From: Defluviimonas salinarum
Lineage (GTDB): Bacteria > Pseudomonadota > Alphaproteobacteria > Rhodobacterales > Rhodobacteraceae
Direction of reading: 5' to 3'
Assembly: GCF_026013545.1 (NCBI RefSeq)
Contig: NZ_JAPDOG010000011.1
Coordinates: 62,001 to 126,000, forward strand
Length of the DNA stretch: 64,000 nt
Shown here: piece after piece, positions 3,233 to 46,811 of the stretch
Position numbering within the stretch: the stretch's first letter is position 1
How the letters are laid out: every line of letters begins with the position of its first letter
The notes under the pieces: generated by a model
Database searches by the model: none
What the model saw: only the letters and a program-made list of their open reading frames with translations
What the model was told of the DNA's origin: nothing
Program-made: the position numbers and the translations under genes

Positions 3233-3259
3233 GATAGACCTCGACAATCAGACCGCGAT

Positions 3260-12482: not shown

Positions 12483-13940
12483 TTAATCCGCCGGGTCGGA
12501 TCTGGTGAGCATGAGGCCGAGCCGGTCCGCGAGACGCATCGCGTCGGTCACGGCCAGGAGTGTAAGCTCCGATGCGGAAACCGGGGTTTCCGGCCTGAGA
12601 AACAGGCGCATTACGATCCCTTCAGCCGCAAACCGGAAGAACGTGGTCAGCTCCTCTAGCGCGACCCCGGCGGGATGGCGGATCCGTTCCGGATAGGCGG
12701 CCAGGAGCATTGTCCCGATTTCATGAATGTAGCGCCCGGTCGGTACGCCGGTCAGGTCGACGACGTAGCTATCGAGACCGCGGTCCTCGTAGCCGAACTG
12801 CCCCTCGACGAGGCGGAGATCGGGAATCAGGTGAAATCCGAGATCCCCGCCGGCGGCGGCCAGTTCCAGCTTCTGCTTCGGGTACGGCCGCAATACCATC
12901 GTCGTTACGAGATCCATCTCCGCAAGGCCGTTGAGCGCCATGTCCGCCTCGAGGCGCATCGCGCCGCCCTTCATGAAAAGCGAGAAACCGGATGCGCCGG
13001 TTACGGTAGAGAGCCCGACCCGGCTGAAATTGGCGATCGCCTCTTTCGGAACCACGCCAGGGGAATAGATCCGGGTCACCGGCGCGGCAGCCGTCAGCCG
13101 TCCTTCGATGAGCGTCAGCGCGTTAAGAGCCTCCATGAGGGCAAGCTGACCGCTGCCCTCCGGCGAGAAGAGTCGCCCCGAACGCAGGACGCGGATCGCA
13201 CCCTGAAGCCCCGAGGAAACCACCTCCGAGGAGATGTCGACATTGGCGGCGCCGACAGCAGGGATTTCACCGGTATTGCGGAACTCTATCTCGGAGACCG
13301 CCACCCGGACCCCCGCCGGCAGATCCGACTCCGCGGTGGCGAGGTCCGCCGGAAGATTGACCTGTGCCCGGGCGCCCGTGATCGCCGCGGAGACGCCGCC
13401 GGTGCTCATCAGCTCGATCTCCCCGGCGTCAAGGACGCCGGAGATCCGGCACCCGTCCTTCGTACCTTTTTCCTGGAAGCCGAAAGACCGGATGCGGACC
13501 GAGGCCGACGGGCCGTCCTCGCCGGGGACCTGCATCTCGCCGGCCTTGATCTCGGCCTTTTCCAGGATCGAGAGCCACTGGCAGACCGGATCTGCCGCGG
13601 CGGCGTTCGGCCAGTCGGAAAGCTGCAGTGCCAGGCCGGAAACCGAGAAGACCGGAGCCGCCGGGTCCCGGGGCCGGACCGTCATCGCTGTCACCCGAAC
13701 CGCGATGTCGCCTCCGTCCAGCGCCGAGATCGCGAGCTCCTCAATGCCGATATCCGCCGCCTCACCCCGCGCCGCGACACCGTGATAGGTGCGCACACCT
13801 TCGCCGATCAGGTCCTGCGCCACCGTTACCCGGAAGGCCCCGGCGGGGAACAACCGTTCGAGCGGCGTCAGTGCCGGTTTTGACCAGGCCATGGCGGGAA
13901 GGGCCGCGGCGACCAGCCCGGCCAGAATCAACGTCCTCAT
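12483..13940 (-). CDS. Exported protein of unknown function, distal gene of the dotL operon
   Basis: 485 residues with a signal peptide (about 1-20, ending AWS or SKP). The remainder is rich in alternating beta-type segments and small residues, with repeated patterns such as IGIEELAISALDGGDI and VRVAVSEIEFRNTGEI that suggest a repetitive beta-structure reminiscent of periplasmic AsmA/lipid-bridge-type proteins. I cannot assign a family. Its ATG overlaps the dotL stop (ATGA), so the two are translationally coupled, implying a role in the transfer or pilus machinery in the periplasm. Confidence 0.6.
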   Translation of the reverse strand: MRTLILAGLVAAALPAMAWSKPALTPLERLFPAGAFRVTVAQDLIGEGVRTYHGVAARGEAADIGIEELAISALDGGDIAVRVTAMTVRPRDPAAPVFSVSGLALQLSDWPNAAAADPVCQWLSILEKAEIKAGEMQVPGEDGPSASVRIRSFGFQEKGTKDGCRISGVLDAGEIELMSTGGVSAAITGARAQVNLPADLATAESDLPAGVRVAVSEIEFRNTGEIPAVGAANVDISSEVVSSGLQGAIRVLRSGRLFSPEGSGQLALMEALNALTLIEGRLTAAAPVTRIYSPGVVPKEAIANFSRVGLSTVTGASGFSLFMKGGAMRLEADMALNGLAEMDLVTTMVLRPYPKQKLELAAAGGDLGFHLIPDLRLVEGQFGYEDRGLDSYVVDLTGVPTGRYIHEIGTMLLAAYPERIRHPAGVALEELTTFFRFAAEGIVMRLFLRPETPVSASELTLLAVTDAMRLADRLGLMLTRSDPAD

Positions 13941-16900
13941 TTCTGCTCCGTCGAAATGATTTTCTCAAGCTCGTCGACCGCGGCGTTCATGAAGCCGGAA
14001 TCCTTCACGCTGGCCAACGGGATCGGTCTGGTGGTTCCGGAGCGCCGCAGGATGTCGAGGCCAAGTTCGCCATTCACATCCTCTTCCGCGAAGATCTTCG
14101 CAAAGCGATTGGAGTTCTCGGCCAGGTAGTTGAAAAACTCGCCCATGCTCTTGCGGTTCTCCCGCTCCGTTTCCTTCTCCTCCACCTCGGTGCTGACGAT
14201 ATGCTCCTCGATGTCGAGGTTGCGCCGCGCGGTTTCCTTGGCTCTCTCCTGCGCGATCAGGAGGTCGATCATACCGCCATGGCGCTCCTGCGGTGTGCGG
14301 CCGCGCGCCGCGCGCGCAAGCCCCGAGACGACATCCCCGACCTCCCCGTCGCCATCGTCGCCGAGGTCGAAATCGTCGAAATCATCACTCTCCCGGCGAT
14401 GGGCCGGGCGGCCACCATCGCGGCGCGCGCGGCCTTCGGGAGCGAAATCATCGCCATCGAGGTTGCCCCGGATGCCGAGCTCGCCCATCAGGTCGATGTC
14501 CAGCTCGTCCTCCCAGTTGCCCTTGTCGTCCTCGGCCTCGACCATGACGCCCGGCATGCGGGCCTGACCGCCCGCCATGATGGCCCCAAGCCAGGCGTGA
14601 TGGATGTTGCGCGGGTTGGCGGCATGATCGCCGGCCGACCACAGGAGCTTGCCGGCGACACCCGCCACCTCGGCGAGACCGTCCCTTGGCGCCGCAAGCT
14701 CGGTGATCGCCTCCGGATCCTTGCTGAGGCCGAGCATCTTCTCGGCGGTGCGGACCATGGAACCGATGAACTCGATCTCGACACGCTGGTCGAGACCGGG
14801 CACCCGATCGGTAGGGCCGCGGACCTTGAGAAACTTGTTGACGCTGAAGTTCGCGGCGAACTCGCTGCCGATGTAGAATGTCGAGGCCTTGACCAGGGTG
14901 CCGTTGAAGAGGAAGTAGAATTCCCCCTCCATCATGTTCTGGAGCTCGTCGACCTTGACCTTGTCGACCTCCTGGAAGGAGGCGTCCATCCGGTCGACCC
15001 AGCGGTTCGCGAAGAACCCCGGCTGGGACTGGAAGCCGGAGGTGACCGCGACCTGGGTTCGTCCGAAGAGCTTCTGGATGAAGCCTACCGTCTTGTCGCC
15101 GTCCACCGTCTTGCCCGCGGCGAAGATCGAGGCGTTGGCGGCCGCGGTCTCGGCGATCTGGGGGCTGATCGCCTGCATCGCCGCCATGTCCTGGCCCGCG
15201 ACGATGATCATGAAGCCGAGCGAACGGGCCTGGGCCATCATCACGTCGATGCCCTTGACCATGTAGTAGCCGGCCTCGTCGAGCACGACGATGTAGGGGG
15301 ACGGTGCCCGGGTCTGCTTGGATTCCACGATCTCCTGGCGCGAGCCCTGCAGCATGAAGCCCGACGCGTTGCCCATCATGATCTTCGCCATGGTGACGAT
15401 GATCTTGCCGCAGTTCTGCATCTCCTCGGGCGCCTTCTGGAGCGCCGGCAGCAGCACGATCAGGATCCTGCGGTTGAGCACGATATCGTCGATATCGACC
15501 TCGCCGAGCGGCGTCCGGAAGATGTGCCCGTAGTCATCTGCCAATGATCCCAATGGCTTAGTGAGCTGCATCGAGAGGAAGCCGTACTGCTCATTGCACT
15601 TGGAATCCTGCGCGTCGCCGTTCATCGCCTTCTCGATCGAGAAGCCCGGGAGCGTGTCGAAGAAGCCCTTCATCGCGAGCTTGGTCGCGGTCGAGAACTC
15701 GCCGCGGATCGCGCGGAGGTAGAGCTCGATGAGTCCCGCCCGGGTCTTCATCTCATCCCAGGCCTCCTCCGGCACGTCCTCGATCTTCGCGATCTTCTTG
15801 CCCTTCAGGAGCGACTTGTCGAAGCCCTTCCCGAGGAAGAGGAAGTCACGGATGGTCTGCACGTTGAGCAGGATGTCACCGGAATCCCGGAGCTCGCAGA
15901 GCGCCTTCATCTCGGCGGTGACGAGCGACATGGCGCGGTTCTTCCACATGTCGTTGCCCGCGCCGGCGTCGCCCATCAGCGAGACCACGATGTTCATCAG
16001 CTGGTCGGCGCCGCCCTTGGCGAAGGGGTTGACGGTGTTCGACTGGGTCGCCGGTCCGCCGGCCGGGGCATCGGGATCGCCGCCGGCATCGGTGAAGTTA
16101 AGGACCCGCACGTCATCCTCGCGGCCGAAGCGCTTGGCGAGCGTCCAGGCACGGGCATAGAACTCCGTCGTGCCCTTGCCGTCGATGAAGAGAAAGCCCG
16201 AGGACCACATGAGGGTTTGTGACACCACACCGAGGAGGAGCTCCGTGTTGTGGGTCACGACATGGTTCTCCATGACATAGAGCCCGTCCTCGCGGTCGGT
16301 CTTGATGCAGGACATCTCGACCTCGTCCTCGAGGCGTTCGACCTGCACGACCTCGAGTCCCTCGCCGCATCCCGGGTAAGCGCAGGCCGCCGCCTGCGGC
16401 CAGACCTGGTCGATCCCCTCGAACATGAGCGTGAGGTCGACGCCCCGCGCCATCTCCTTCAGGGAGCCACGGACATAGACCGTGGCGATGCCGCCGAGCG
16501 ACCAGGCGATCTGCTTGATGATTTTCGCATCCGCGACACGCAGGCCGGAGAGGCGCACGCCGTGCTTTTCGATTGTCACGCCGATCTCGGCGTTGCGGGT
16601 CCATGTCCGCAGGAACGCGATCCGCTCCTCGGGCGAGCCCCAGAGCGAGGGCATGTAGTCGAGATGTTCGAGGCCCTCGCGTGCGCCGCGCCGGGCATGC
16701 GCCTCGGAGAGGATCGGCGAGCCCGCGGGGATCGCCATGCCCTCGTGCGGCCGGGCGAGCGGGATCGTGATGTGAAGCTTGTCGCCATGCATGCCCGAAA
16801 GGATACCGACGTCCCCAGCGGTCATGAGCTTGCCATCCTCGGTAAAGCCGAAGCCTTCGGGAAGATCGAGCTTTCCGTCGAGCCGCACGCGCGGCTTGGC

Positions 16901-17545
16901 CTTCACATGCCAGAGATGATCGAGCGAGCAATCGGCGTGGCGGCCATCGGAGAACCACATCCGCACCGCCGGGATCGCGCCCTGGGGGTGGATGGAGAGG
17001 ATCCGAGAGGTGCCGCCGAACGGATGGCAGACCTCGTCACCGGGCCCGAGATCCCCGTTCAGCACCCATCCGCGCGGGGTGAGGACCGGCGTGTCGAGCG
17101 GCAGCGCCTTGCCCGAGCCGGTCGTGCCGAGGAAGAAGCCGTGCCGGCGGGCGTCGCCGTTCTCGATCCAGAGCTCCTCCAGGCTGGCCTGGTCACGGCC
17201 GAAATAGAGGATGCCGCCGGCCTTTGAGTAGCCTGACCCGCCGGGTTTCGGGGCGCCGTAATCGAGCCCTCCCCAGTTCTGCGGAACCTTGAAGGGGAGA
17301 CGATATTTCTTGGAGGAAACCCAGCTGTAATAGCCAAGCGTGATCGGCAGGAGGCCGAGCCAGGTCTGCGGGAAGAGCGCGAGCACGCTCACCGACCCGA
17401 ACATGGTGATCATCACCGTGTCCTTCATCGTCAGAAGGTCGCGCATCTCCTGCCAGGCCGACCTGATCGGCCGCCGGACAAAGCCGGGATCGACGGAATC
17501 CTTCGCCGCGGGAAGCGTCGGTGACTTGCTGACATGCTCGGCCAT
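13937..17545 (-). CDS. dotL: Type IVB coupling ATPase DotL/TrbC family, interrupted by an intein
   Basis: 1202-residue precursor, 915 after removal of the intein. The N-terminal extein has membrane segments at about 42-75 and reaches the start of Walker A (GTTGSGK, 140-146). The intein occupies 147-433. The C-terminal extein resumes with TELLLG and GFLFIDGKGTTEFY, diagnostic of the IcmO/DotL/TrbC group, and has a Walker B-like VVLDEAG near 752. DotL proteins are inner-membrane AAA+-like ATPases that bring DNA-protein substrates to the type IVB channel with DotM, which is encoded in the same operon. The gene overlaps the next by ATGA. The acidic tail (about 1060-1125) is low-complexity. ATP hydrolysis should require splicing. 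Confidence 0.9.
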   Translation of the reverse strand: MAEHVSKSPTLPAAKDSVDPGFVRRPIRSAWQEMRDLLTMKDTVMITMFGSVSVLALFPQTWLGLLPITLGYYSWVSSKKYRLPFKVPQNWGGLDYGAPKPGGSGYSKAGGILYFGRDQASLEELWIENGDARRHGFFLGTTGSGKALPLDTPVLTPRGWVLNGDLGPGDEVCHPFGGTSRILSIHPQGAIPAVRMWFSDGRHADCSLDHLWHVKAKPRVRLDGKLDLPEGFGFTEDGKLMTAGDVGILSGMHGDKLHITIPLARPHEGMAIPAGSPILSEAHARRGAREGLEHLDYMPSLWGSPEERIAFLRTWTRNAEIGVTIEKHGVRLSGLRVADAKIIKQIAWSLGGIATVYVRGSLKEMARGVDLTLMFEGIDQVWPQAAACAYPGCGEGLEVVQVERLEDEVEMSCIKTDREDGLYVMENHVVTHNTELLLGVVSQTLMWSSGFLFIDGKGTTEFYARAWTLAKRFGREDDVRVLNFTDAGGDPDAPAGGPATQSNTVNPFAKGGADQLMNIVVSLMGDAGAGNDMWKNRAMSLVTAEMKALCELRDSGDILLNVQTIRDFLFLGKGFDKSLLKGKKIAKIEDVPEEAWDEMKTRAGLIELYLRAIRGEFSTATKLAMKGFFDTLPGFSIEKAMNGDAQDSKCNEQYGFLSMQLTKPLGSLADDYGHIFRTPLGEVDIDDIVLNRRILIVLLPALQKAPEEMQNCGKIIVTMAKIMMGNASGFMLQGSRQEIVESKQTRAPSPYIVVLDEAGYYMVKGIDVMMAQARSLGFMIIVAGQDMAAMQAISPQIAETAAANASIFAAGKTVDGDKTVGFIQKLFGRTQVAVTSGFQSQPGFFANRWVDRMDASFQEVDKVKVDELQNMMEGEFYFLFNGTLVKASTFYIGSEFAANFSVNKFLKVRGPTDRVPGLDQRVEIEFIGSMVRTAEKMLGLSKDPEAITELAAPRDGLAEVAGVAGKLLWSAGDHAANPRNIHHAWLGAIMAGGQARMPGVMVEAEDDKGNWEDELDIDLMGELGIRGNLDGDDFAPEGRARRDGGRPAHRRESDDFDDFDLGDDGDGEVGDVVSGLARAARGRTPQERHGGMIDLLIAQERAKETARRNLDIEEHIVSTEVEEKETERENRKSMGEFFNYLAENSNRFAKIFAEEDVNGELGLDILRRSGTTRPIPLASVKDSGFMNAAVDELEKIISTEQK
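16247..17107 (-). other. Class 3 intein inserted in the Walker A motif of DotL
   Basis: An in-frame 287-residue insertion splits GTTGSGK from the following T. Its first residues ALPLDTPVLTPRGW match splicing block A but begin with Ala, not Cys or Ser. Block B contains SLDHLWHV with the Trp used by class 3 inteins. Block F has MSCIKTDREDGLYV with the Cys nucleophile. Block G is ENHVVTHN followed by Thr +1. Thus the W-C-T triad of class 3 inteins, the terminal His-Asn and a Thr acceptor are all present, so splicing is expected. The middle (about intein residues 105-235) includes IAFLRTWTRNAEIG followed by VAD...SLGG, resembling one degenerate LAGLIDADG half whose catalytic acids seem lost. Confidence 0.9.
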
Positions 17546-23959: not shown

Positions 23960-24652
23960 TCACAAGAGGATCCCGATCGCGGCGGCAAGCCACGTGACCG
24001 GAAAGGAAAGTGCGAGAAATGTAATAGCTCTTTCGTTATTCATATCATTTCCGAGAACTTCTTTCAAAACCTCATCAACAACTTCCTGCCTGGAAAACAG
24101 CGAAAGAATTTCATCGGACTTCATGCACAGAGCGAGTATTGCGGATATTGTCATCATGACCGCGACCATTGCCGGCGTGAGCCCGAAGATCATCACCGGA
24201 ATCGTGAGCGCGAGAAGATCGGCGGGCGGCGGGATCATTCGCTCCGGAAACCGCCACTGCGCGGCCATCCAAAGACCCTGGGCAGCGATATAGGCCGCCA
24301 CGCCCCCAACCAGGAGCCAGGCCGGATCCCCACCCCAGGAGCCGAGGATACCTCCCGTCGCGAGCGCGGCGGCGACAGCCGGCCCCACGACCAGGTCCGG
24401 CGCCCATCCGCTCGCCCTGTCGATCATCGCACCCGTCAGGAGCATCGCCCCAAGTACCGCCACGACGGCGATTTCGAGGACCTGGGCTTGCGCGCCGAGC
24501 AGGAGCGCAGGCGAGGCGCCAAGAAAGGCGGCGGCGGCAAAATGCCAACGGGGAATGCCGGTGCCGGGACCAGCGGTCAGCCTGAGCCCGGCCTCGGCGG
24601 CCGCCGCGCAGACCGTAGCGGCGATCGCAGCGATGGCGAGATGCGCAATCAT
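23960..24652 (-). CDS. pilU: A24-type prepilin peptidase PilU
   Basis: 230 residues, mostly hydrophobic (about six to seven helices). MIDRASGWAPD (77-86) fits the first aspartate motif of type IV prepilin peptidases, and PPPADLLAL (141-149) holds the second aspartate (145), though the usual GxGD glycines are absent. The enzyme would cleave the leaders of the two prepilins and PilV in this window. It overlaps the DotM stop by ATGA. The lack of an N-terminal methyltransferase domain is common in PilU-type enzymes. Confidence 0.7.
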   Translation of the reverse strand: MIAHLAIAAIAATVCAAAAEAGLRLTAGPGTGIPRWHFAAAAFLGASPALLLGAQAQVLEIAVVAVLGAMLLTGAMIDRASGWAPDLVVGPAVAAALATGGILGSWGGDPAWLLVGGVAAYIAAQGLWMAAQWRFPERMIPPPADLLALTIPVMIFGLTPAMVAVMMTISAILALCMKSDEILSLFSRQEVVDEVLKEVLGNDMNNERAITFLALSFPVTWLAAAIGILL

Positions 24653-26094
24653 CCGTCGATCCCGTCGATATCGGCGGCAGTCTCGACGCCGAGGATGCTG
24701 CCGCGGATCATCTCGATCTGGTCGCCCGGGGTCCGGTGACGCACGGCGCGCTGCTTGCGCAGATCTATACGCTCTGGCGTCATGTCGAGATAGTCCTCGA
24801 GAAGCGCGCGGGCGGCCTGGTAGACCGCCGGCCTGCGGATCGGGCGGGAAATCTGCGTCTCCGCGCGCGAATGCGCAAGCGCGCCCGCGGCTTCGATCAT
24901 GACCGCCTCGTTGCCGACATTGTTGAGGATGTACCACATCAGCCGGTCCTCCGCCTTCAGCCACAGGAAGGCAGCGGGTGGCAGGACGCCCCGGTCCTTG
25001 CGCGCCTTGGCAAGGAAGGTCGGAAAGGCGGATTCGACCCAGGCGTGGTGCCCTGCGGCGCGCGCGAGCGTCTTGCCGGGGGTGCCGAGGACGATCTTGT
25101 CGATCTTCGCGGCCATCCCCCGCTCCGAAAGGAGGGCGCCATCCATGCTGCCCCGCTTCGCCTTCATGGCATCCGCGAGGATGCCGAGCTCAGACAGGAG
25201 CTTGTTGCCGCCGTCGATATCGTAGGCGTAAAAGAGCGCCATGACCGCGAACAGCGCCTTGTGGCAAGGCCGAAGGTCGGCCGGACCCGTCCAGGGCGTG
25301 CGGAGCTGGGCCGAAAGCACCTCCGAGACGGTCTCGAGATCGAGCTCTTCCCATCGACCGCGAAATTCGAAGTCGCTGTCGCGCACACTCTCGTCGCCGC
25401 CGGTCATCACGCTGTAGCGGCCGGGATCGAAGGCCAGGCCATTGGCGATGAGCCATTCCTCGGGCCTGAGCGCCCTGTTCCATGTACCGGGCTGCAGCGC
25501 GATCAGGCGGCGCGGGATCGCGAAACCTGGCATCTTTGCCCCCTCGCCGTACTTGCCCGCGACGCTTTCCGCGATCCGGCGCGCAGAGATCTCCTTGCCC
25601 TTGAGCGGGTTCATGTGGCGCGCGATCCGCGAGGTCATCCAGTTCTCGGACTGCACCCAGATCATGCTCTCCAACGTGTGGCTCGTCCGGTACTTCTGGT
25701 CGACCCGGAACTCCTTTCCGTTAAGGGCGATCCAGACGAAGCTGGCGCCGTAGAGGATAGACGCGGCGCGCCCCCCGGCGACCAGGACCGCCGTGCGCTG
25801 CTCCGGGGTCATCGCCGCATAGCCGCCCTGGCCAAGGAACTTGTGGGCCAGGAGGGACTGGTCGAAAAGCCAGGATCCGATGAACGGAATATCCTGCAGA
25901 AAGGGCAGGTACCTGGCCGCCGTGGCGAAGGGCAGCGTGTGCAGCCAGGTCACCGCGCCGATGAAGGCGTTGATGCGCATCTCCTGGGCGGCAATGATGG
26001 CGATGACGATGAAAAAGCAGATCAGGCCCGCGATGGCGAGCTTGAAGAGCTCCTGGTCGTCGCCGGGCTGCCCGGGCTGGGACGGCCCGCTCAT
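24649..26094 (-). CDS. dotM: Type IVB coupling-complex protein DotM/TrbA
   Basis: 481 residues. Two or three N-terminal transmembrane segments (about 16-40, 48-66, 100-118) precede a large cytoplasmic domain with HTLESMIWVQSENW and NPLKG (around 137-166), typical of the IcmP/DotM/TrbA family. DotM partners DotL in the type IV coupling complex that recruits substrates. It is encoded in the same leftward operon as dotL, overlapping its upstream and downstream neighbours by ATGA. Slightly longer than Legionella DotM, mainly at the C terminus. Confidence 0.85.
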   Translation of the reverse strand: MSGPSQPGQPGDDQELFKLAIAGLICFFIVIAIIAAQEMRINAFIGAVTWLHTLPFATAARYLPFLQDIPFIGSWLFDQSLLAHKFLGQGGYAAMTPEQRTAVLVAGGRAASILYGASFVWIALNGKEFRVDQKYRTSHTLESMIWVQSENWMTSRIARHMNPLKGKEISARRIAESVAGKYGEGAKMPGFAIPRRLIALQPGTWNRALRPEEWLIANGLAFDPGRYSVMTGGDESVRDSDFEFRGRWEELDLETVSEVLSAQLRTPWTGPADLRPCHKALFAVMALFYAYDIDGGNKLLSELGILADAMKAKRGSMDGALLSERGMAAKIDKIVLGTPGKTLARAAGHHAWVESAFPTFLAKARKDRGVLPPAAFLWLKAEDRLMWYILNNVGNEAVMIEAAGALAHSRAETQISRPIRRPAVYQAARALLEDYLDMTPERIDLRKQRAVRHRTPGDQIEMIRGSILGVETAADIDGIDG

Positions 26095-28469: not shown

Positions 28470-28865
28470 ATGAAAACGTCGTCAGACATGAAGCTGAAAT
28501 CGCGCATCGGGCTTGCCGCCCTCGCCGCCGTGGCCCTGAGCGGTCTCGCTGGCACGGCAAGCGCGGATGTTGGGGCCATCTCCGCAGCCCCGGCGGCCAC
28601 GACCCAGGACCAGTGGGTGGTCATGGCGGGTACGTCACTGAAGTCGACACTCGAGGGCTGGACGCGGGTTTCCGGCTGGACCCTGATCTGGGACAGCCCG
28701 GTGGATTATCGCATGCGCGCCTCTGCCACCTTCTCGGGCGGGTTCGAGGAATCGGCCTCACGCCTGATCGACTCGATCTACAACGGCAATCCGGAGCTCA
28801 TGGCCACATTCCATCGCGGGAACCGGGTTCTTCATATCGAAAACCAGCCCCTGAGCAGCAACTGA
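28470..28865 (+). CDS. TcpQ-domain pilus protein (PilL C-terminal type)
   Basis: 131 residues with a signal peptide (about 1-31, ending ASA) and a single domain containing LKSTLEGWTRVSGWTLIWDS and HRGNRVLHIEN, matching the toxin co-regulated-pilus Q-type domain found at the C terminus of PilL. Such proteins help the secretin assemble in the outer membrane. It is much shorter than IncI PilL because it holds only the Q domain. It lies 26 bases before pilN. Confidence 0.65.
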   Translation: MKTSSDMKLKSRIGLAALAAVALSGLAGTASADVGAISAAPAATTQDQWVVMAGTSLKSTLEGWTRVSGWTLIWDSPVDYRMRASATFSGGFEESASRLIDSIYNGNPELMATFHRGNRVLHIENQPLSSN

Positions 28866-28891
28866 GCGGCACGAGAAAAGGTCTGAAAACC

Positions 28892-30502
28892 ATGAAAACG
28901 AAAGTCATCCTTCTGGCCGCCGCGTCCACCATCGCACTCGTGGGTTGTGCCAATACCGGCGACCGCTCCGGGCGGCTTGACCGCTCGGAGTCGATGGTCG
29001 ATTCCGGCCTGTCGCGACTTGGTGGCCGCAACGCCCTTCGCGCCGGCGGCGCCCAGTTTTCCGAAGGCGTCTTCGTCGGCGCCTCGCCCGAGCGGCACAA
29101 CTCCTCGGCGCTCCTGCCGGCCCGCTTCCAGGCCGCGGGCGCCATCCGCCTCGAGAGCCGCGACCCGATGACGCTGCCGGAGATCGCGCAGCGCCTCTCG
29201 GAGATCACCAGCATCCCCCACGTGATGGCGCTTGGCCCGACCGGCAACCTCGTCTCCGGTTTCGGCGAGGAGCTTCGCTCGGCGAGCGATGTGTCCTCCG
29301 AGGCTGACACCGAGATCGAGGCTGAGGCGGGCGGCCGCCCGGCGCCGACCAATGGCCGCGCCTCGGCATCCCGGCCCGCCTCTTCGGGCGGCTCCGAAGT
29401 AACGATGCGCCCCAACCTTCGCGGGTCGCTCTCCGACGTGCTGAACCAGGTGACGGCGACCTTCGAGGTCGAGTGGAGTTACTCCGACGGCCGCATCCTC
29501 TTCCGCGACTACGTCACCCGGAAGTACCAGATTACCGCGCTGCCGAGCACGGCCCAGTCGTCGTCGGCGATCGGCGCAAACTCGATCTCGACCACCTCCG
29601 CCGTCAACTCTGACGTCTGGGTCGAGGTCAGGGATACCCTCCAGGGCCTGATCGGGGACCAGGCGACGGTCGCGATCGGCTCGACCACGGGCCTCGTCAC
29701 CGTTACCGCGAAGGTCAGCGACCAGAACCGCGTCGAGGAATACATCAAGGAGCTCAACGGCACGCTCGGACAACAGATCTCCTTCGACGTCAATGTCCTG
29801 ACCGTCGCCCTGAACGACGAACAGTCCTTCGGCCTCGATCTCGGCGGCGCGCTCGCCAAGGGGTCCGATGGCGCGATCCGGATCGGCCCTGATGTCTTCG
29901 ATGCGTCCGGCACCGATATCGGTTCCTACAATATCGGCCTGATCCGGGGTGATTTCAGCCTCGGCGCGGTGGTCAACGCCCTCGCCAGCCAGGGCAAGGT
30001 CTCGGTTGCCACCCGGGCGGGCGCGACCACCTCCAACAACCGCGTGGCTCCGATCGAGGTCGTGGATCAGTTCGCCTACCTGAAGGAAATCGCGATCGAG
30101 CAGGATGACAACGGAAACGAGCGCATCCTGCGCACGCCCGACACCGTCACCACCGGCTTCCAGATGCAGCTCTTCCCGCGGGTGATGAACAACCGCGACA
30201 TCATGGTCCAGTACACGGTCCGGCTCTCGGAGCTGAACGACATCAAGACCTTCGGTGACGGCAACGAGGCCGTGCAGTTGCCCGAGATCTCGACGACCTC
30301 ATTTGAACAGCAGGCGGTTCTCGAGAACGGACAGACGCTGGTTCTCGCCGGGTTCGAACGCCGTCGCGTCTCTTCGGACGGCAAGGGCAGCGTCGTCGGC
30401 CTGTCCGGTTTCGGCGGGTCGAAGAGGACCGCCAACCAGCGTGTGGCGACCGTGATGATGATCACGCCGCACATCATCGGCCGTTCGAGCGCTTCCCGGT
30501 AA
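28892..30502 (+). CDS. pilN: PilN lipoprotein secretin of type IVb pilus
   Basis: 536 residues. The lipobox is ALVGC (Cys19), followed by short N-domains and the secretin core: LNGTLGQQISFDVNVLTVAL, VATRAGATTSNNR and the C-terminal VLENGQTLVLAGFERRR, typical of the GspD/PilN family. It would form the outer-membrane gate for the pilus. ATG 28892 gives the lipobox at the right distance. The following gene, pilO, starts 67 bases later. Confidence 0.9.
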   Translation: MKTKVILLAAASTIALVGCANTGDRSGRLDRSESMVDSGLSRLGGRNALRAGGAQFSEGVFVGASPERHNSSALLPARFQAAGAIRLESRDPMTLPEIAQRLSEITSIPHVMALGPTGNLVSGFGEELRSASDVSSEADTEIEAEAGGRPAPTNGRASASRPASSGGSEVTMRPNLRGSLSDVLNQVTATFEVEWSYSDGRILFRDYVTRKYQITALPSTAQSSSAIGANSISTTSAVNSDVWVEVRDTLQGLIGDQATVAIGSTTGLVTVTAKVSDQNRVEEYIKELNGTLGQQISFDVNVLTVALNDEQSFGLDLGGALAKGSDGAIRIGPDVFDASGTDIGSYNIGLIRGDFSLGAVVNALASQGKVSVATRAGATTSNNRVAPIEVVDQFAYLKEIAIEQDDNGNERILRTPDTVTTGFQMQLFPRVMNNRDIMVQYTVRLSELNDIKTFGDGNEAVQLPEISTTSFEQQAVLENGQTLVLAGFERRRVSSDGKGSVVGLSGFGGSKRTANQRVATVMMITPHIIGRSSASR

Positions 30503-30569
30503 TGGCCGCGCCGCCGGGCGTCCCGCAGGCGCCCGGCTTGGATGACCTCAAGGATCCGAGGATAATGGA

Positions 30570-32111
30570 ATGAAGTTCAGGAAGCGCGAAAAAACGACCG
30601 ACGACGGGGCGCCGGAAGGCGAGGTGAAACCGCGCCGGTTCGCCAGGGTCTTGGGCCGGAAGACCGCTCCCGAGGTCGGGGAGGCCGGCGACGGGTTCGT
30701 TCCGGAGAACCCCCGTTCAAAGAAGGCCACGCCCAAGGCCTCGAAGGGCACGTCCATGAAATCGCTGTCCTTCTCCGCTAGTGCCGCATCCGCGGCGGAG
30801 TTGAAGAAGTCGATCTCGACCTCGCCGGACATCTTCATGGACGAGCCGGGCGTCATTGCCTTCGGCAAGAAGAAGGCCGCCCTCGGCCTCAGCTGGACGA
30901 CCAGGGACGAGGACAAGACGGTCAAGGCGCAGATACGGGATCTCAACGAACAGAGCGCCGAGGATCCTGCCTCGAGAACGGTCAACTACCAGTTCTACAC
31001 GGACACCAAGAAGACCGGTTTTGTCGGCCTCGGAAGCCCCGATCTCGGCCACAAATCCGGGATGAAGGCGCTCGTCACGCTCCTGTCCCCCGCAATCACA
31101 GGTCCGCGCTGGATCGGCGTGTTCCGCCTCGACGAGAGCAAGGATCTCTGGTGGGTCGGCTCGATCCGCGACAGCAAGGTCTTCGAGGACCAGATCATCA
31201 CCGGTCGCCATCGCGCCGAAGAGATCTTTCTCACCGAGCTGCAGGCTCCCGACTGGTCGTCCGTCTTTGCGCCGGAAGACTGGGGTATCGCCCAGACCAG
31301 AGGCGAGCGGCTGCATGAGGTCGTCGACTTCCGGGGTGGCGAAAAGCTGAAAAGCATCAGCCCGGTCAAGGACAACCTGCCTCGGATCGCTCTCGTGGCG
31401 GCCGTGGCGGCGGTGGCCGCCGGGGGGTTCCTGTTCTTCCAGAACATGAAGGCCAAGGAGCTCCGAGAACTCGAGGAGTTGAGAAAGCGGGTTGAAAGCC
31501 AGGTCAGTCTCGGACCCCAGGATTTCCCGTGGTACAACGTTACCCGCGCTGATCTGTTCATCTCGACCTGCATGAGCGAGATCGAAAAGAGCATCATCGT
31601 GATTCCGGGGTGGGAGGCGCAGCCGATCTCCTGCACCATCTCCGGAGGACAGGGTACGATCTCGACGGGCTGGTCCCGGATGGGCGGCCGCTTCTCCTGG
31701 CTCCGGACCGCGATCCCCGGGGAGGATCCTCAGCCCACCATGTCCCCGGACGGGACGACGGCGGCCTTCTCGCGCAGCTTCACCGCTCCTTACGATGAAC
31801 TGTCCTTCGCCGACCAGCCCTGGGGTGGAGCCCAGATCGACAGCTGGGTCCGCGAGCGGCTCCAGGTCTTCGGCCTCGAGCTCTCGATGCGCCCGAACCA
31901 GGAAAACCGGGACGCGGCCGGCGCGAAGCCGCTGTTCAATTCCCACGACATCCGCATCCAGACACCGTACGCGATGCGAAATTATGGGGATTTGCTGAGG
32001 GATGTTCCGGCACTGGTGCCACAGGTTCTGATATACAACGTCCAGACCAGCAGTTGGGACCTTGCCCTGAAGGCCTACCACCCGCCGATCCTGCCGGTGC
32101 CGAAACAGTAG
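30570..32111 (+). CDS. pilO: PilO-type inner-membrane pilus protein
   Basis: 513 residues. The first 265 form a large cytoplasmic region (Actin/PilM-fold-like size), then a single transmembrane helix (about 270-288) and a periplasmic domain with coiled-coil start (RELEELRKRVESQVSL) and two cysteines (TCMSEIE, ISCTISG). This is the layout of type 4b PilO2 proteins, which link the motor ATPase to the secretin. It is 10 bases before pilP. Family assignment rests on order and topology more than on sharp motifs. Confidence 0.7.
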   Translation: MKFRKREKTTDDGAPEGEVKPRRFARVLGRKTAPEVGEAGDGFVPENPRSKKATPKASKGTSMKSLSFSASAASAAELKKSISTSPDIFMDEPGVIAFGKKKAALGLSWTTRDEDKTVKAQIRDLNEQSAEDPASRTVNYQFYTDTKKTGFVGLGSPDLGHKSGMKALVTLLSPAITGPRWIGVFRLDESKDLWWVGSIRDSKVFEDQIITGRHRAEEIFLTELQAPDWSSVFAPEDWGIAQTRGERLHEVVDFRGGEKLKSISPVKDNLPRIALVAAVAAVAAGGFLFFQNMKAKELRELEELRKRVESQVSLGPQDFPWYNVTRADLFISTCMSEIEKSIIVIPGWEAQPISCTISGGQGTISTGWSRMGGRFSWLRTAIPGEDPQPTMSPDGTTAAFSRSFTAPYDELSFADQPWGGAQIDSWVRERLQVFGLELSMRPNQENRDAAGAKPLFNSHDIRIQTPYAMRNYGDLLRDVPALVPQVLIYNVQTSSWDLALKAYHPPILPVPKQ

Positions 32112-32121
32112 GAGCAAGGGA

Positions 32122-33195
32122 ATGAGAGCAAAACCGAACCTTAAATCGATCGAGGCCGTCATGCGAAAAACGAAATGCAACTTGATTATTCCGATGGGCG
32201 CATCCGCCCTGGCCCTCCTCGTCTTCCAGGCGCCCCTCCACGCCCAGGAAGCGCCCGCGCCCGCAGAGGCTCCGATTGTCACGCTTGACGCTGGCGGCGG
32301 GGACCCGGCCACAAGCGCTGGCGCAACCGTGGAGCCCGCAGGTTCCGTCGAGGCGGATGCCACGATCGGGGAAGTCGCGGTCGAGCAGACCGAAGAGGAG
32401 GCCGCTATCGAGAAGACCGAAGCGGACGCCTCCTCCGCCGGCGAGCCACGCGCCACCCCCGACAATGTCGACCCGCTTGTCGGCGACCACATGCAGCGTC
32501 TCGACCGGTTCGGCGTCATCTCGCGCCAGTCCGATCTCGGGGAAGACATCCTCATCATCGACCGCGAGATCAAGCGCGCGGAGTCGATCAGCACACTGCT
32601 CACCTACATGGGTATCGATGGTTTCAAGAAGACCTATCCCGAACTCGCGGAACTGATGGAGAACAGCCCCGTCGTGCTGCGCGCGGAACTCGACAAGCAA
32701 ACACTGAAAAAGGAGATCGAGGCGGCGAAATCCGACCTTGAGCAGGCGGTCGCGGCCAACAACGCCCCCGCCCCCCGCGACGACGGATCGAGCTTCTTTG
32801 AGCTTCCCGGCGCGGCAGCCGCGGCCGACGGCCGCCCCGCGCCGACGCTTGGCGGGATCACGCCGCTGGCGGATCCGGCGGCGATCGACATGGCCGCCCT
32901 GGCGGCGCTGGGTATCGCGGCGCCAGGCGCTCTGCCCGCGCCCGCCGGCGAGATCCTGACGGAGACACCCGAGGTGGCGCCGGCCGAACCGGAGATCAAG
33001 GACATCCCGATCTCGCTTCGTGAAGTCTACGGCGTCAGCGACGATTTCACGGCCGTGATCATGCATGGTGATGAGCGCATCCGCGTGCGCGCCGGTGATG
33101 CCCTGCCGAACGACACCGTCATCGAGTTCGTCGGCGAGGACTACATCAAGCTGAAGCGTCGCGGAGAGACCGTCCGGGTCCAGATCCGCGGCTGA
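32122..33195 (+). CDS. pilP: PilP-like periplasmic pilus protein
   Basis: 357 residues. ATG 32122 has GGAGC-AAGGGA upstream and gives a signal peptide ending HAQ (about 40). A variable acidic middle precedes a C-terminal beta-domain with REVYGVSDDFTAVIMHGDER and VRAGDALPNDTVIEFVGEDY, typical of PilP-type proteins that bridge inner-membrane PilO and the secretin. TGCGAAAA (32162-32169) lies just inside the gene at an internal ATG. Confidence 0.75.
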   Translation: MRAKPNLKSIEAVMRKTKCNLIIPMGASALALLVFQAPLHAQEAPAPAEAPIVTLDAGGGDPATSAGATVEPAGSVEADATIGEVAVEQTEEEAAIEKTEADASSAGEPRATPDNVDPLVGDHMQRLDRFGVISRQSDLGEDILIIDREIKRAESISTLLTYMGIDGFKKTYPELAELMENSPVVLRAELDKQTLKKEIEAAKSDLEQAVAANNAPAPRDDGSSFFELPGAAAAADGRPAPTLGGITPLADPAAIDMAALAALGIAAPGALPAPAGEILTETPEVAPAEPEIKDIPISLREVYGVSDDFTAVIMHGDERIRVRAGDALPNDTVIEFVGEDYIKLKRRGETVRVQIRG

Positions 33196-33238
33196 GAAAA
33201 GCGAAACGCTTGAACACGTAATCGGTTTCGGGGGAATC

Positions 33239-34861
33239 ATGTCTGCTGCCGAACTCAAGGAAAAAATTGGTGATGCGGATCTCCTGACCCGTGAGGGAGG
33301 CCCCATCCAGATCACCGAGGGACAGCGCCGCCAGGTGGCGCTGTTCTCGAACGGCCTGGCCGCGATCGCCATCGGCGAGCGCTGGTCGGCCGAGGTCAAG
33401 ATGCTCCTGACCAGTGCGCGCAAGAAGAACTACGAATTCACGCAGTTCATCGAGGTCGAGACGCCGACGATCCTCGACCTCTACAAGGATTCCGATCCCG
33501 AGAGCGGCAAGGCCCAGGCGCTCGAGCTCGAGCGACAGGTCGATCTCGCGGACCTGATCCGGCAGGCTGGCAGCGACCGTGCCTCGGACATCCATATCCG
33601 TGTGCTCAAGAAATACACCGAGATCCGGATCCGCGTTTTCGGCCGGGTCAAGGATCTCGGGTCGCGCAAGTCCGACGAGGGCATGGCGCTCATCAAGGCC
33701 GCCTTCGCCGTGGCCTCCGACCTCGGCACCAACTCCTCGGACCTGTCGTTCCAGCAGGGCGCCCTCACGGCAAAATCGAACCTGCTGCCGCCCAAGGTGG
33801 AGATGGTGCGTCTGCAGTATTCCCCCACCTCCGACGGTCGCGGCGCGCTCGTCATGCGTCTGAAATACGAGGCGCCCGCCAACGAGATCGAGATCGATCA
33901 TCTTGGCTACAACGCCCAGCAGATCTCCGACATCTCGACGATGCGGAAGCGGACCAACGGCATGTATGTGCTCGCAGGCAAGGTGTCGTCAGGCAAATCG
34001 ACCACGCTCCAGCGGGTCCTGAACAAGATGTTCGTCGACAAGCACCGCGAGATCTCGATGTATACGATCGAGGAACCGGTCGAGCTCGACCTGCCGGGCG
34101 CTATCCAGGTGCCGGTGAAAAAGAACCCCGACGGCACCGACGGCTTCGTCGAGGCCATGAAGGCCTCGCTGCGCTCGGACCCCAACGTCATCGTTCTCGG
34201 CGAGACCCGCTCGACCGAAACCGCCAAGCTGGCGGTCCAGGCGGTCATGACCGGCCACGCTCTTTGGACCACTGTCCACGCGGGCGCGGCACTCGGCATC
34301 CTCGACCGTCTCACCGACCTTGGCGTCGAGAGCTGGAAGCTCGAGGACCCGACCGTCGTGCGGGGCCTCGTCTACCAGCGTCTCACCGGCGTGATGTGCA
34401 AGGGCTGCCGGATCACCTTCCGCCAGGGCATGAAGAACGGCTCGCTCGAGCCGGAGCTCGGCGAGAAACTCATGAATCTCTTCGCCAAGGGCCCGGACGA
34501 ACTTTACGTTCGCGGCGACGGCTGCCCGAAATGCAAGTTGGGTCTCGGCGGCCGGACCGTCGTCGCCGAAACCGTGCTGACCGACCCGAAACTCCTCGAG
34601 CTCTACTCGAAGGGCGACCGGATCGGCATGCGCGAATACTGGCTGAGACCGGTCGACGACAAGGGCCTGGGAGGCGTCCCGGTCCTCCACCACGCGCTCT
34701 CGAAGGTCGGCGCCGGGCTTTGCGACATCAACGAGGTCGAGGAGGAGGTCGACCTCTTCTCGATCTACGAGCGCGACTTCATGTTCCTCCGGCCGCGGCT
34801 CCTGGAGGATGTGAGGATCCTCGAAGAGCAGGAAGCCGCCAAGGAGAATGCGAAAAAATGA
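33239..34861 (+). CDS. pilQ: PilQ assembly ATPase of type IVb pilus
   Basis: 540 residues. Walker A is GKVSSGKS (247-254), the Asp box lies in YTIEEPVELD (275-284), Walker B is VIVLGETR (317-324) and a His box is TTVHAGA (344-350). Two CxxC pairs (387-390, 429-432) form a zinc site as in PilB/GspE. It would power pilin polymerisation with PilR. Its last codons contain TGCGAAAA, and its TGA overlaps the next start (ATGA). A degenerate copy of its C-terminal half follows. Confidence 0.9.
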   Translation: MSAAELKEKIGDADLLTREGGPIQITEGQRRQVALFSNGLAAIAIGERWSAEVKMLLTSARKKNYEFTQFIEVETPTILDLYKDSDPESGKAQALELERQVDLADLIRQAGSDRASDIHIRVLKKYTEIRIRVFGRVKDLGSRKSDEGMALIKAAFAVASDLGTNSSDLSFQQGALTAKSNLLPPKVEMVRLQYSPTSDGRGALVMRLKYEAPANEIEIDHLGYNAQQISDISTMRKRTNGMYVLAGKVSSGKSTTLQRVLNKMFVDKHREISMYTIEEPVELDLPGAIQVPVKKNPDGTDGFVEAMKASLRSDPNVIVLGETRSTETAKLAVQAVMTGHALWTTVHAGAALGILDRLTDLGVESWKLEDPTVVRGLVYQRLTGVMCKGCRITFRQGMKNGSLEPELGEKLMNLFAKGPDELYVRGDGCPKCKLGLGGRTVVAETVLTDPKLLELYSKGDRIGMREYWLRPVDDKGLGGVPVLHHALSKVGAGLCDINEVEEEVDLFSIYERDFMFLRPRLLEDVRILEEQEAAKENAKK

Positions 34862-35841
34862 GCGTATCGGCCGAAAACAAGCTTGCGATCCTTGGCTTCC
34901 CGCCAGGCATCGTTGCCGGCATCGACGCGATGCGCCGGGAAAAGACCGGGCTCTTCCTGGTGTCCGGGCTCTCCGGATCCGGCCGGAAGGCGACCCTGCA
35001 GGCAATCCTGGATCTCGTCCTGAGCGATGGGGGGGAACGCTTCCATGCCGTCGTTGTCGCCCATCCGGGGGAATTCGACGTGCCGGTCTCCCTGCTTGCC
35101 CCGATGCGGGACAATCAGGAAACCGTCGACCCCCTTCATGGCGCCATGCGCTTCGCGCTCTACCAGGATCCCGAACTCATCATCCTCAGCAGGGCGAACT
35201 CGGACGAGACCGCGAAGAGCGCCGTCAATGCGGCTCTCGTGGGCTATGGAATCTGGGCCGGAATCAGCGCCTCATCCGCGTTCGACGCGCTCGATCGTCT
35301 GAGCGGGTTCGGCGTGCCGCCCCACCATTTCGAAGACTCCGTGATACGAGGAATCGTCCATCAGCAGATGCTCGGAGTGCTCTGCGGCAATTGCCGCATC
35401 ACCTTTCTCAAGGCCATGGAAAGCGGCACTCTCGAGCGCGGGCTCGGTGAGCGTGCCATGCGGCTCCTTCGCAAGGATGAGGCTGGGCTCTTCGTTCGCG
35501 GAGGTGGCTGCGCGGAATGCCAGTCGGGTTTCGCCGGGCGGGCCGTGACGGCCGAGATCGTGCGTACCGACGCGGTCCTGCTGGCCCGTCGCAGGGCGGG
35601 CGACCTTGCCGGAATGCGCGAGCACTGGCTGAAACCGGCCAGTATGGGCGGTCTCGGCGGGGTGCCGATCCTGCACCATGCGCTTGCCAAGGTCGGCGCC
35701 GGCCTGTGCGACATCAACGAGATCGAAATGGCGATCGCTCCGCTCTCGGAGTATGAGCGGGACCTCATGCCCCTTCATCAACAGCTTCTGAAGGATGTCG
35801 CGATCCTCGAAGCCCGTGCCTGCGAAAAGAGAACGGCATGA
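34858..35841 (+). CDS. Degenerate PilQ paralogue (pseudo-ATPase)
   Basis: 327 residues, homologous to the C-terminal ATPase half of the preceding pilQ. Walker A is degenerated to GLSGSGRK (37-44) and Walker B to LIILSRAN (107-114), so the catalytic glutamate and likely ATP hydrolysis are lost. The paired cysteines (176-179, 218-221) and the C-terminal block LGGVPILHHALAKVGAGLCD are preserved, so the fold is kept under selection. It lacks the N-terminal domain. Translation is coupled to pilQ and to pilR (both ATGA). Role as a structural subunit or regulator of the PilQ ring is inferred. Confidence 0.8.
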   Translation: MSVSAENKLAILGFPPGIVAGIDAMRREKTGLFLVSGLSGSGRKATLQAILDLVLSDGGERFHAVVVAHPGEFDVPVSLLAPMRDNQETVDPLHGAMRFALYQDPELIILSRANSDETAKSAVNAALVGYGIWAGISASSAFDALDRLSGFGVPPHHFEDSVIRGIVHQQMLGVLCGNCRITFLKAMESGTLERGLGERAMRLLRKDEAGLFVRGGGCAECQSGFAGRAVTAEIVRTDAVLLARRRAGDLAGMREHWLKPASMGGLGGVPILHHALAKVGAGLCDINEIEMAIAPLSEYERDLMPLHQQLLKDVAILEARACEKRTA

Positions 35842-36920
35842 TTTACAAGCCCACAAACTTCGAGAAGAAGGTCGCCAAGTTCCAGTTCGGCTACAAGGCC
35901 CGGACGGATATGTATAACCAGCTCATCGCCCTTCTCGGTACCGGCATGCCGAAAACGGATGCGATCCAGATGTCCTGGGACGTGGCCTCGATGGAGGGCA
36001 AGAAGCCGAAGGAGGCAATCGCGATCGTGCTCCAGGACATCATCCAGGGCATGAAGAACGGCCTCTCGCTCGGCCAGGCGATGAAGGCCTGGGTACCGCA
36101 GGAAGACGTCATGGTTTTCGAGGCAATCGAGAACTCGGACGACTTCGTCGCCAACCTCAAGGAATATCTCGAGATGCTCGAGAAGAAGAAGAAGATCAAG
36201 TCCACCATTTCCGGAGGTCTCGCCTACCCCGCCGTCCTGGTTCTCATGGTCTACGGGATCATGACCTACTTCGGCAAGAACGTGGTGCCGCAGATCGCGC
36301 AGCTCCTGCCCATCGAGAAATGGCAGGGGGCGGCCAAATTCCTGACCTTCATGTATAACTTCGCGAACCACTACGCGATCCCCACCGTCGTCGTCTTTCT
36401 CACGATCGTCGGGATCATCATGGCCTCCCTGCCCCGCTGGGCGGACAAGGGCCGCGGCATCGCCGACAAGATGCCGATCTACTCGACCTACCGGATGTAT
36501 ACCGGCATCTCTTTCCTGATGTCGATGGCCTCGCTCATCCAGGGCGGGATGCCCGCGGTGCAGGCGATTGACCGGCTGCGCCCGAGCGCCACGCCCTATG
36601 TCGCCCATCGCCTGTTCAAGGTCCGCAACCAGATGCTGAACGGCAACAACTTCGGCGCCGCGCTCTACAAGGCCGGAACCGGCTGGCCGGACCAGAAGAT
36701 GAACCTCAACATCAAGATCTTTGCCGAGACCCAGGATCTCTCCGCCCAGCTCGCCAAGCTCTCCAAGAGCTGGATCGACGTCGCCCAGGCCAACATCTCG
36801 AAGACCATGGCCGTGCTCAGGACCGCGGCCATGATGATGGTGTTCCTCACCATCATGGGCATCGTCGGCGGCGTCTACGCGCTGCAGGACCAGATCGCCA
36901 CGTCGGTCCAGTCCCAGTAG
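35838..36920 (+). CDS. pilR: PilR inner-membrane pilus platform protein
   Basis: 360 residues with the GspF/TcpE plan: a basic N-terminal cytoplasmic domain (about 1-125), transmembrane helices around 130-155 and 175-200, a second cytoplasmic repeat, and a final helix (about 327-352). SLGQAMKAWVPQEDVMVFEA is the usual GspF-type segment. It anchors the PilQ motor and pilins. It is coupled to the pseudo-ATPase upstream, and a terminator follows. Confidence 0.9.
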   Translation: MIYKPTNFEKKVAKFQFGYKARTDMYNQLIALLGTGMPKTDAIQMSWDVASMEGKKPKEAIAIVLQDIIQGMKNGLSLGQAMKAWVPQEDVMVFEAIENSDDFVANLKEYLEMLEKKKKIKSTISGGLAYPAVLVLMVYGIMTYFGKNVVPQIAQLLPIEKWQGAAKFLTFMYNFANHYAIPTVVVFLTIVGIIMASLPRWADKGRGIADKMPIYSTYRMYTGISFLMSMASLIQGGMPAVQAIDRLRPSATPYVAHRLFKVRNQMLNGNNFGAALYKAGTGWPDQKMNLNIKIFAETQDLSAQLAKLSKSWIDVAQANISKTMAVLRTAAMMMVFLTIMGIVGGVYALQDQIATSVQSQ

Positions 36921-38258: not shown

Positions 38259-38338
38259 GGCGCGCAGCGCGGTTCTCCACAGCGCCGCGGGCCGTCTGGC
38301 GACAAAGCCATATGTGGTTTCTTTATTCTCAGATAGGA

Positions 38339-38346
38339 TTTTCGCA
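38339..38346 (-). promoter_or_regulatory. TGCGAAAA site upstream of traY
   Basis: GATTTTCGCAAAC reads as GTTTGCGAAAATC on the minus strand, about 80 bases before the traY start, in the 166-base gap after the second pilin. Its spacing to the gene matches several other copies. Confidence 0.35.
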
Positions 38347-38424
38347 AACCGCATGACGGATGGTCCGTATTATTCGCGCGGTGGCGTGCGGCCGCGCGTC
38401 GCCCCGGAGGAGAAGGTGAGACAG

Positions 38425-45134: not shown

Positions 45135-45527
45135 TCAGACCTTCCGCATCTTCCCCTTGGGGGTCTTTGATTTCGCCTTCATCTGCCCGGCCTGCTTCGC
45201 GCGGATCTCGATCATCTGCCGGGCCCGCGCGACATGCGCCGCGGTCTCGAAGCCAAAATCCACCGGCATCCGCTCGGCCTGCAGGCCGCGCGCGGTGCGC
45301 TTTCGGCCGACAATGGAGGCCCGGAGGAAACGCAAAATGCTGGTGGCGCTCACGCCCTTGCGGTCGAAGAGCCACAGCACCAGGATCGTGACGACCGAGA
45401 GCCCGATCGTCCACGGACGGATATGCATCACCGTCAGAAAGAGGACGATGACCAGGCGGCCGTCAAGAAAGAGGAACTTTGGCTGCCGATGGGTCTCGCG
45501 CCAGTAGAGCGGGGTTCCGAAATACAT
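45135..45527 (-). CDS. icmT: IcmT/TraK-like type IVB transfer protein
   Basis: 130 residues. YWRETHRQPKFLFLDGRLVI (9-28) followed by WTIGLSVVTILVLWLFDRKG and a basic C terminus is characteristic of IcmT/TraK, a small inner-membrane protein of Dot/Icm and IncI systems. ATG 45527 overlaps the dotB stop (TGATG). The C-terminal 45 residues exceed most IcmT proteins. Confidence 0.85.
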   Translation of the reverse strand: MYFGTPLYWRETHRQPKFLFLDGRLVIVLFLTVMHIRPWTIGLSVVTILVLWLFDRKGVSATSILRFLRASIVGRKRTARGLQAERMPVDFGFETAAHVARARQMIEIRAKQAGQMKAKSKTPKGKMRKV

Positions 45528-46804: not shown

Positions 46805-46811
46805 CCCACCA

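Follow-up and report, generated by a model that had tools for sequence, protein, structure and literature searches.

Our subject is one gene, and an insert within it, on the reverse strand of a 64,000-nucleotide stretch of Defluviimonas salinarum DNA (contig NZ_JAPDOG010000011.1, positions 62,001 to 126,000; the window, from here on). A single uninterrupted reading frame encodes a 1202-residue precursor of a DotL/TrbC-type coupling ATPase, and residues 147-433 of this precursor are a 287-residue in-frame insert which is, we think, very probably a class 3 intein that splices. An earlier reading of the letters by themselves (the sequence-only reading) had placed such an insert at 16247-17107, between the K and T of GTTGSGK-T, and had named it a class 3 intein in a DotL/TrbC host with a spliced product of 915 residues. 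The placement is correct to the base, and the flanks (GTTGSGK before, TELLLGV after), together with empty homologues, confirm that Walker A is cut as GTTGSGK^T.

The host assignment has held up as well. The precursor passes Pfam TraG-D_C (24.9 bits against a cut-off of 22) and matches NCBIfam TrbC_conju at 2.7e-100 and 336.8 bits, which is under the equivalog cut-off of 800, so that it is best called a relative and not an equivalog. In an alignment with ten homologues, the likeness extends across most of the length and takes in Walker A and, in the C-extein, an LDEAGYY stretch whose Asp-Glu is invariant and which we take to be Walker B. Seven of these ten are empty, with the residues on both flanks of the P-loop K^T complete, and the other three (Methylorubrum extorquens AM1, Xanthomonas euvesicatoria and Pseudomonas syringae) carry an insert at the same column. 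The alignment is clean around the insert, and subtracting 287 residues from 1202 leaves the predicted spliced protein of 915. The insert is present as a single copy in the genome.

As to the kind of intein, class 3 is defined, in a mycobacteriophage paper (PubMed Central, PMC5050341), by Trp at B:12, Cys at F:4 and Thr at G:5, and our block numbering follows this paper and PMC5222942. The insert has all three, as W66, C267 and T285. Its first residue is Ala1, not a Cys or Ser nucleophile; block A is ALPLDTPVLTPRGW; HLW holds H64 and W66 of block B; MSCIKTD holds C267; and the insert ends in THN, with H286 as the penultimate His and N287 as the terminal Asn, followed by Thr at +1. Every element of the signature listed by the sequence-only reading is therefore present. 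Class 1 was rejected for want of Cys or Ser at position 1, and class 2 because the insert has a block F Cys, which is not expected of class 2 inteins. Among solved structures, the insert's sequence comes closest to the class 3 DnaB inteins from Mycobacterium smegmatis (6bs8, E 1.2e-6) and M. chimaera, a likeness that, at this E value, is not due to chance, and a model built on a 69-sequence intein alignment predicts the HINT fold. Sequence, comparative and predicted-structure evidence thus all support the class 3 assignment.

It is particularly pertinent to look at close relatives. Searching 394 genomes of the window's bacterial family with the whole precursor uncovered DotL in six, the window's own counted, and five of the genes carry the intein (the window, G504, G418, G462 and one copy in G611); those of G426 and a second, partial copy in G611 are empty. 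On a tree of 35 DotL C-exteins, the window clade comprises six members, five occupied and one empty, with a support of 100. The four intein-bearing relatives test the motifs more fairly than any set collected by patterns, because they were found mainly through their exteins. His64, Trp66, Cys267, Thr285, His286 and Asn287 are invariant in all five inteins, at whole-intein identities of 30-51%, and invariant columns number 22/70 in the N-terminal splicing part, 13/179 in the middle and 9/38 in the C-terminal part. In the whole frames of the relatives, THN stands directly before the DotL C-extein. A further Cys, Cys60, adjoining block B, is found in four of the five. G611 itself has its intein-bearing and intein-free DotL genes on separate contigs (L138 7026-8411, L137 6215-9268).

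Table. Coordinates, strand and basis of the features assigned in the window.
Feature	Position	Strand	Basis
DotL/TrbC/IcmO-type coupling ATPase precursor gene, 1202 residues	13937..17545	-	open frame; TrbC_conju; TraG-D_C; alignment with 10 homologues
N-extein, 146 residues, ending in first half of Walker A (GTTGSGK, 17108-17128)	17108..17545	-	alignment to empty homologues
Class 3 intein (very probable), 287 residues	16247..17107	-	
N-terminal splicing region, residues 1-70, blocks A and B	16898..17107	-	22/70 columns invariant in five family inteins
Block B His64-Leu65-Trp66 (B:10 His, B:12 Trp)	16910..16918	-	invariant in five family inteins
Middle region, residues 71-249, apparently dead LAGLIDADG homing endonuclease remnant	16361..16897	-	no LAGLIDADG match; 13/179 invariant
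WSLGG, conserved endonuclease scrap	16490..16504	-	invariant in five family inteins
Block F Cys267, predicted initiating nucleophile (F:4)	16307..16309	-	invariant in five family inteins
Block G Thr285-His286-Asn287 (G:5-G:7)	16247..16255	-	invariant in five family inteins
Thr +1, Walker A Thr of the mature ATPase	16244..16246	-	invariant T434 in precursor alignment
C-extein, 769 residues plus stop	13937..16246	-	alignment with 10 homologues
DotM/IcmP	24649..26094	-	Pfam DotM_C 3.1e-39; NCBIfam DotM_IcmP_IVB 7.7e-31, under cut-off
Pilus genes: secretin (PilN-like), PilO, pilus ATPase, GspF-like	28613..36920	+	Pfam Secretin, PAP_PilO, T2SSE, T2SSF above cut-offs
DotA/TraY	38314..40917	+	NCBIfam DotA_TraY 1.5e-79, above cut-off
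T2SSE-family secretion ATPase	45527..46855	-	Pfam T2SSE 1.4e-30

What the sequence-only reading did not raise is the degenerate homing endonuclease in the middle of the insert. Pfam LAGLIDADG_3 is matched by 58 of the 69 aligned inteins; that of the window matches no LAGLIDADG family in Pfam and belongs with the remaining 11, some of which are mini-inteins. The first LAGLIDADG motif is absent from it, and the second, paired by eye, is FLRTWTRNAEIG against VQGLMDTDGT in the M. extorquens intein; none of the five clade inteins keeps DxDG at this position. The region still forms helices and strands in the structure model, and its WSLGG recurs as RSLGG or WSLGG in the inteins of M. extorquens and the plasmid pKAZ5. 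With both motifs lost, homing is not expected, and the homing-endonuclease part of the window intein looks dead.

Several points weigh against the reading of a splicing class 3 intein, or at least against holding it too comfortably. The insert by itself matched no family in Pfam or NCBIfam. The 69 sequences were gathered by patterns with HLW and C-I-x-x-D, and their ends set by THN, so that the invariant columns of that alignment are partly so by construction; similarly, intein ends in the comparison of 35 DotL proteins were placed by a script at THN before Ser or Thr, which makes the THN columns a not wholly independent check, and the query that found the four family relatives included the intein itself. 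One of these relatives, the G462 intein (L136), has Ser at both position 1 and +1, which is not how class 3 inteins usually begin, with Trp-Cys-Thr kept; the other four clade members start with Ala. The clade of five inteins is weakly supported against the empty G611 paralogue (66/63), and the correlation that suggests joint divergence of intein and extein within the clade (Mantel r 0.67, with 2 of 120 permutations as high) comes from five taxa only. Finally, the ratios of non-synonymous to synonymous substitution (dN/dS) for the window against its nearest relative, G504, which are 0.20 for the splicing domain and 0.565 for the middle, with dN 0.148 and dS 1.025 for the C-extein, are rough, because they come from a single pair with dS near 1 and from the Nei-Gojobori method (NG86) alone. 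Rough as they are, they indicate stronger purifying selection on the splicing domain than on the middle and, taken with the dead-looking endonuclease, this intein seems to be kept through splicing rather than homing.

We favour a class 3 intein that splices in cis from within Walker A of the DotL ATPase, itself part of an IncI/Dot-Icm-like conjugation system. The 1202-residue precursor would be made first, with its ATP site split; Cys267 would attack the peptide bond that joins Lys to Ala at the N-terminal junction, after which the acyl group would pass to Thr+1 and Asn287 would cyclise, leaving a 915-residue ATPase in which GTTGSGKT is whole again. The precursor should not form an ATP site before excision, because the two halves of Walker A are apart and the Thr of this motif doubles as the +1 nucleophile; we suppose the precursor to be inactive by analogy with P-loop inteins, of which RadA is cited in PMC6195587. 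With its ATP site divided in this way, the motor should be able to drive DNA transfer only once the intein has been spliced out. The ancestor, we infer, was a class 3 intein bearing a LAGLIDADG endonuclease that decayed past function, so ending homing, and the intein would have persisted since because the ATPase needs splicing and precise loss is rare.

A possible extension of this scheme, which would be an addition to a splicing class 3 intein and not an alternative to it, is that splicing serves as a switch, slow or conditional enough to time the activation of DotL, for example in stressed donors or in a new transconjugant. DnaBi1 of M. smegmatis, likewise a class 3 P-loop intein, is stalled by oxidants via a disulfide (PMC6195587), the window intein belongs to a diverged clade whose members are without endonuclease motifs, and Cys60 lies beside block B in most of that clade. 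However, the DnaBi1 partner Cys48 aligns with Ala47 of the window intein, so that the exact DnaBi1 redox switch is not present here, and the need for splicing together with the rarity of precise loss explains persistence equally well; we consider a switch rather unlikely. Less likely again, and indeed very improbable, is a dead or decaying intein, in which splicing has been lost although the class 3 residues are still there, leaving DotL non-functional and the conjugation system defunct. The endonuclease part does look dead already, and the class 3 intein Arth_1007 has been reported as a pseudogene (PMC3196547), but here the six catalytic residues are intact, four relatives retain them, dN/dS is low in the splicing domain and the C-extein, and frame and exteins are whole. 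Hardly any credence is due to the insert as a normal domain of DotL, since, despite its being in frame within one open reading frame, it is missing from 21 of the 35 DotL homologues compared, cuts the P-loop between Lys and Thr, and combines the class 3 residues with a predicted HINT fold.

How widespread, then, are such inteins? A class 3 intein occupies the same codon in 14 of the 35 DotL homologues, window included, in a set enriched for inteins; the other 13 are the four from the same family, those of M. extorquens and Salipiger, and seven from Xanthomonas and Pseudomonas. Two loci stand outside this comparison: L155 was left out, and L145 was dropped for want of a P-loop by pattern, although its homology matches abut and it looks empty. 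Across the wider class, 14 further genomes among 385 gave DotL matches, and the 12 that were delimited are all empty; searching the same 385 with the insert matched four, the window's own included, the other three being weak and none of them DotL as read. A class 3-like intein with a GLMDSDG LAGLIDADG motif, a block F of CIEVD and THN before Thr is found in G387, of the window's genus (L123), and G410 (L122) gave a weak match too. Scans with the single insert sequence recovered no relative in the viral-contig or genome-contig collections, so that an alignment query was needed, and this returned 22 genome loci and 80 viral loci (the best 80 of 105), three of the 102 without an intein end (L023, L065 and L075). 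Alignment A3 comprises 68 of the 102, hand-picked, with near copies, end-less loci and a few doubtful ones (e.g. L039) excluded. In 20 of the 22 genome loci and 60 of the best 80 viral loci, the intein is flanked by a P-loop GK on its N-terminal side and by Thr or Ser on the other, so that GK^T/S is the norm for the class.

The whole precursor matched 3919 plasmid records and the insert only 27, nine of the latter falling by coordinates inside DotL matches (six Xanthomonas, two Pseudomonas and M. extorquens), which means that occupied DotL genes are rare in plasmids. Class 3 inteins are also found in some TraD coupling proteins. Six enterobacterial or uncultured plasmid records (H3-H8) match the insert across the same residues, and the two inspected are both typed IncC, with the pKAZ5 gene annotated as TraD; the C-exteins of L018, L027 and L029 exceed the NCBIfam SXT_TraD cut-off and that of L028 is under it. 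In one Escherichia coli IncC plasmid (L007 4446-6649, NZ_AP028311.1), the N-terminal part of a TraD intein is followed directly by an IS3-family transposase, so that this TraD looks interrupted within its intein. Elsewhere, class 3 inteins of 358-362 residues sit at GK^T in the P-loop of a ClpB-like chaperone in Planctomycetia, Thiorhodospira and Thiotrichaceae (L019, L025 and L026), a label that comes from NCBIfam for L019 and L025, just below equivalog cut-offs with the C-extein alone.

The trees bear on how often DotL was invaded. On the C-extein tree, starred branches force at least three changes of occupancy. In an 88-row intein tree, which has 63 distinct viral inteins from the best 80 of 105 viral loci and omits L021, L023, L030, L037 and L039 of the 22 genome loci, DotL inteins are found in the window clade (support 98) and among gamma mini-inteins (Shimodaira-Hasegawa-like approximate likelihood-ratio support, SH-aLRT, 100), and those of M. 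extorquens and Salipiger each stand beside a TraD intein (89 and 82, not starred), which suggests that class 3 inteins have been exchanged between DotL and TraD; the starred branches require two or more changes of host label. When 46 rows, with every third of the viral inteins, are analysed over splicing-domain columns, one change only is forced, a single DotL-intein clade is disfavoured, not rejected, by the approximately unbiased test (p-AU 0.083), and holding the window clade and gamma mini-inteins together gives p 0.31. On these tests, several invasions of DotL are likely, not proven.

Among known systems, the mycobacterial DnaB inteins (DnaBi1, 6bs8; M. chimaera DnaB1, 6rix/6riy) share with ours the splicing fold, Trp-Cys-Thr and a non-nucleophilic first residue, but their host is a replicative helicase and not DotL. 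DnaBi1 is also sited in a P-loop, whose Ser is its +1 residue (PMC6195587), and differs as a mini-intein with a redox partner Cys48, where the window intein has Ala47 and a decayed endonuclease remnant. Another is the DotL/TrbC intein of the M. extorquens AM1 megaplasmid (L008), which we believe to be the InBase entry 'Mex TrbC' and which matches ours in host protein, codon and class; unlike ours it has a LAGLIDADG region (Pfam 2.7e-8, over a stretch covering most of the region), and it groups with the TraD inteins, outside the window clade. The DotL mini-inteins of Xanthomonas and Pseudomonas (plasmids L005 and L006; contigs L032-L035 and L038) also agree in host, codon and class, but are 145-150 residues long, begin with Pro and form a separate clade. 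TraD inteins (IncC plasmid pKAZ5, L009; genome loci L018, L027 and L029) resemble ours as class 3 inteins at GK^T of a coupling ATPase, in hosts that are TraD by the SXT model (L018, L027 and L029) or annotation (pKAZ5) instead of DotL, and those of L018 and L027 match LAGLIDADG_3, as ours does not.

For the most part, class 3 inteins have been described in phage and replication ATPases; is this one unusual, as the sequence-only reading had it? The intein is of a kind already known, and the coupling-protein host is its less common part, so that this much of the claim stands; the rest fades when so many DotL proteins in the intein-enriched set, and some TraD proteins, carry one, and GK^T/S is the usual site. 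Indeed, Lys^Thr is called a 'classic' P-loop insertion in PMC5050341. No literature on inteins in DotL or TraD coupling proteins was found among open-licence PMC titles, and DotL as an intein host is probably not a first. The repeated presence of these inteins in two kinds of conjugation motor suggests that plasmids, like phages, carry them and pass them around, and a clade with dead-looking homing and a conserved splicing domain furnishes a natural test of passive passenger against control step. A bolder reading, and a rather unlikely one, would see coupling ATPases as a recurrent class 3 niche, with moves between DotL and TraD, in which the intein of the window clade gave up homing and was kept as a maturation step or timer gating DNA transfer.

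The surroundings of the gene are those of a type IVB conjugation locus of the IncI/Dot-Icm kind. DotA/TraY and DotM/IcmP, the partner of DotL in type IVB systems, are encoded in the window, and genes for DotI, DotH and a DotG/TrbI-like protein lie on the same contig outside it (L141); the T2SSE-family secretion ATPase may be DotB/TraJ. NCBIfam PilN matches within the pilus gene set, which is embedded in the conjugation region, at 5.9e-58, under its cut-off, and the set presumably resembles the R64 thin pilus. No relaxase was seen among the scanned reading frames, which are part of those in the window and its flanks, on a 148 kb contig of a draft genome, so that the contig is at most a candidate conjugative plasmid. 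A megablast of 24 kb against the plasmid collection matched nothing, so that this collection holds no near copy of the element. Elsewhere on the contig, a tellurite-type stress cluster (TerD/StiP/PELOTA/TRSP) lies to the left of the window (L140 4441-15381), and within the window an RCC1-repeat protein with a signal-like N-terminus (1856-3247) adjoins ThyX (3338-4243).

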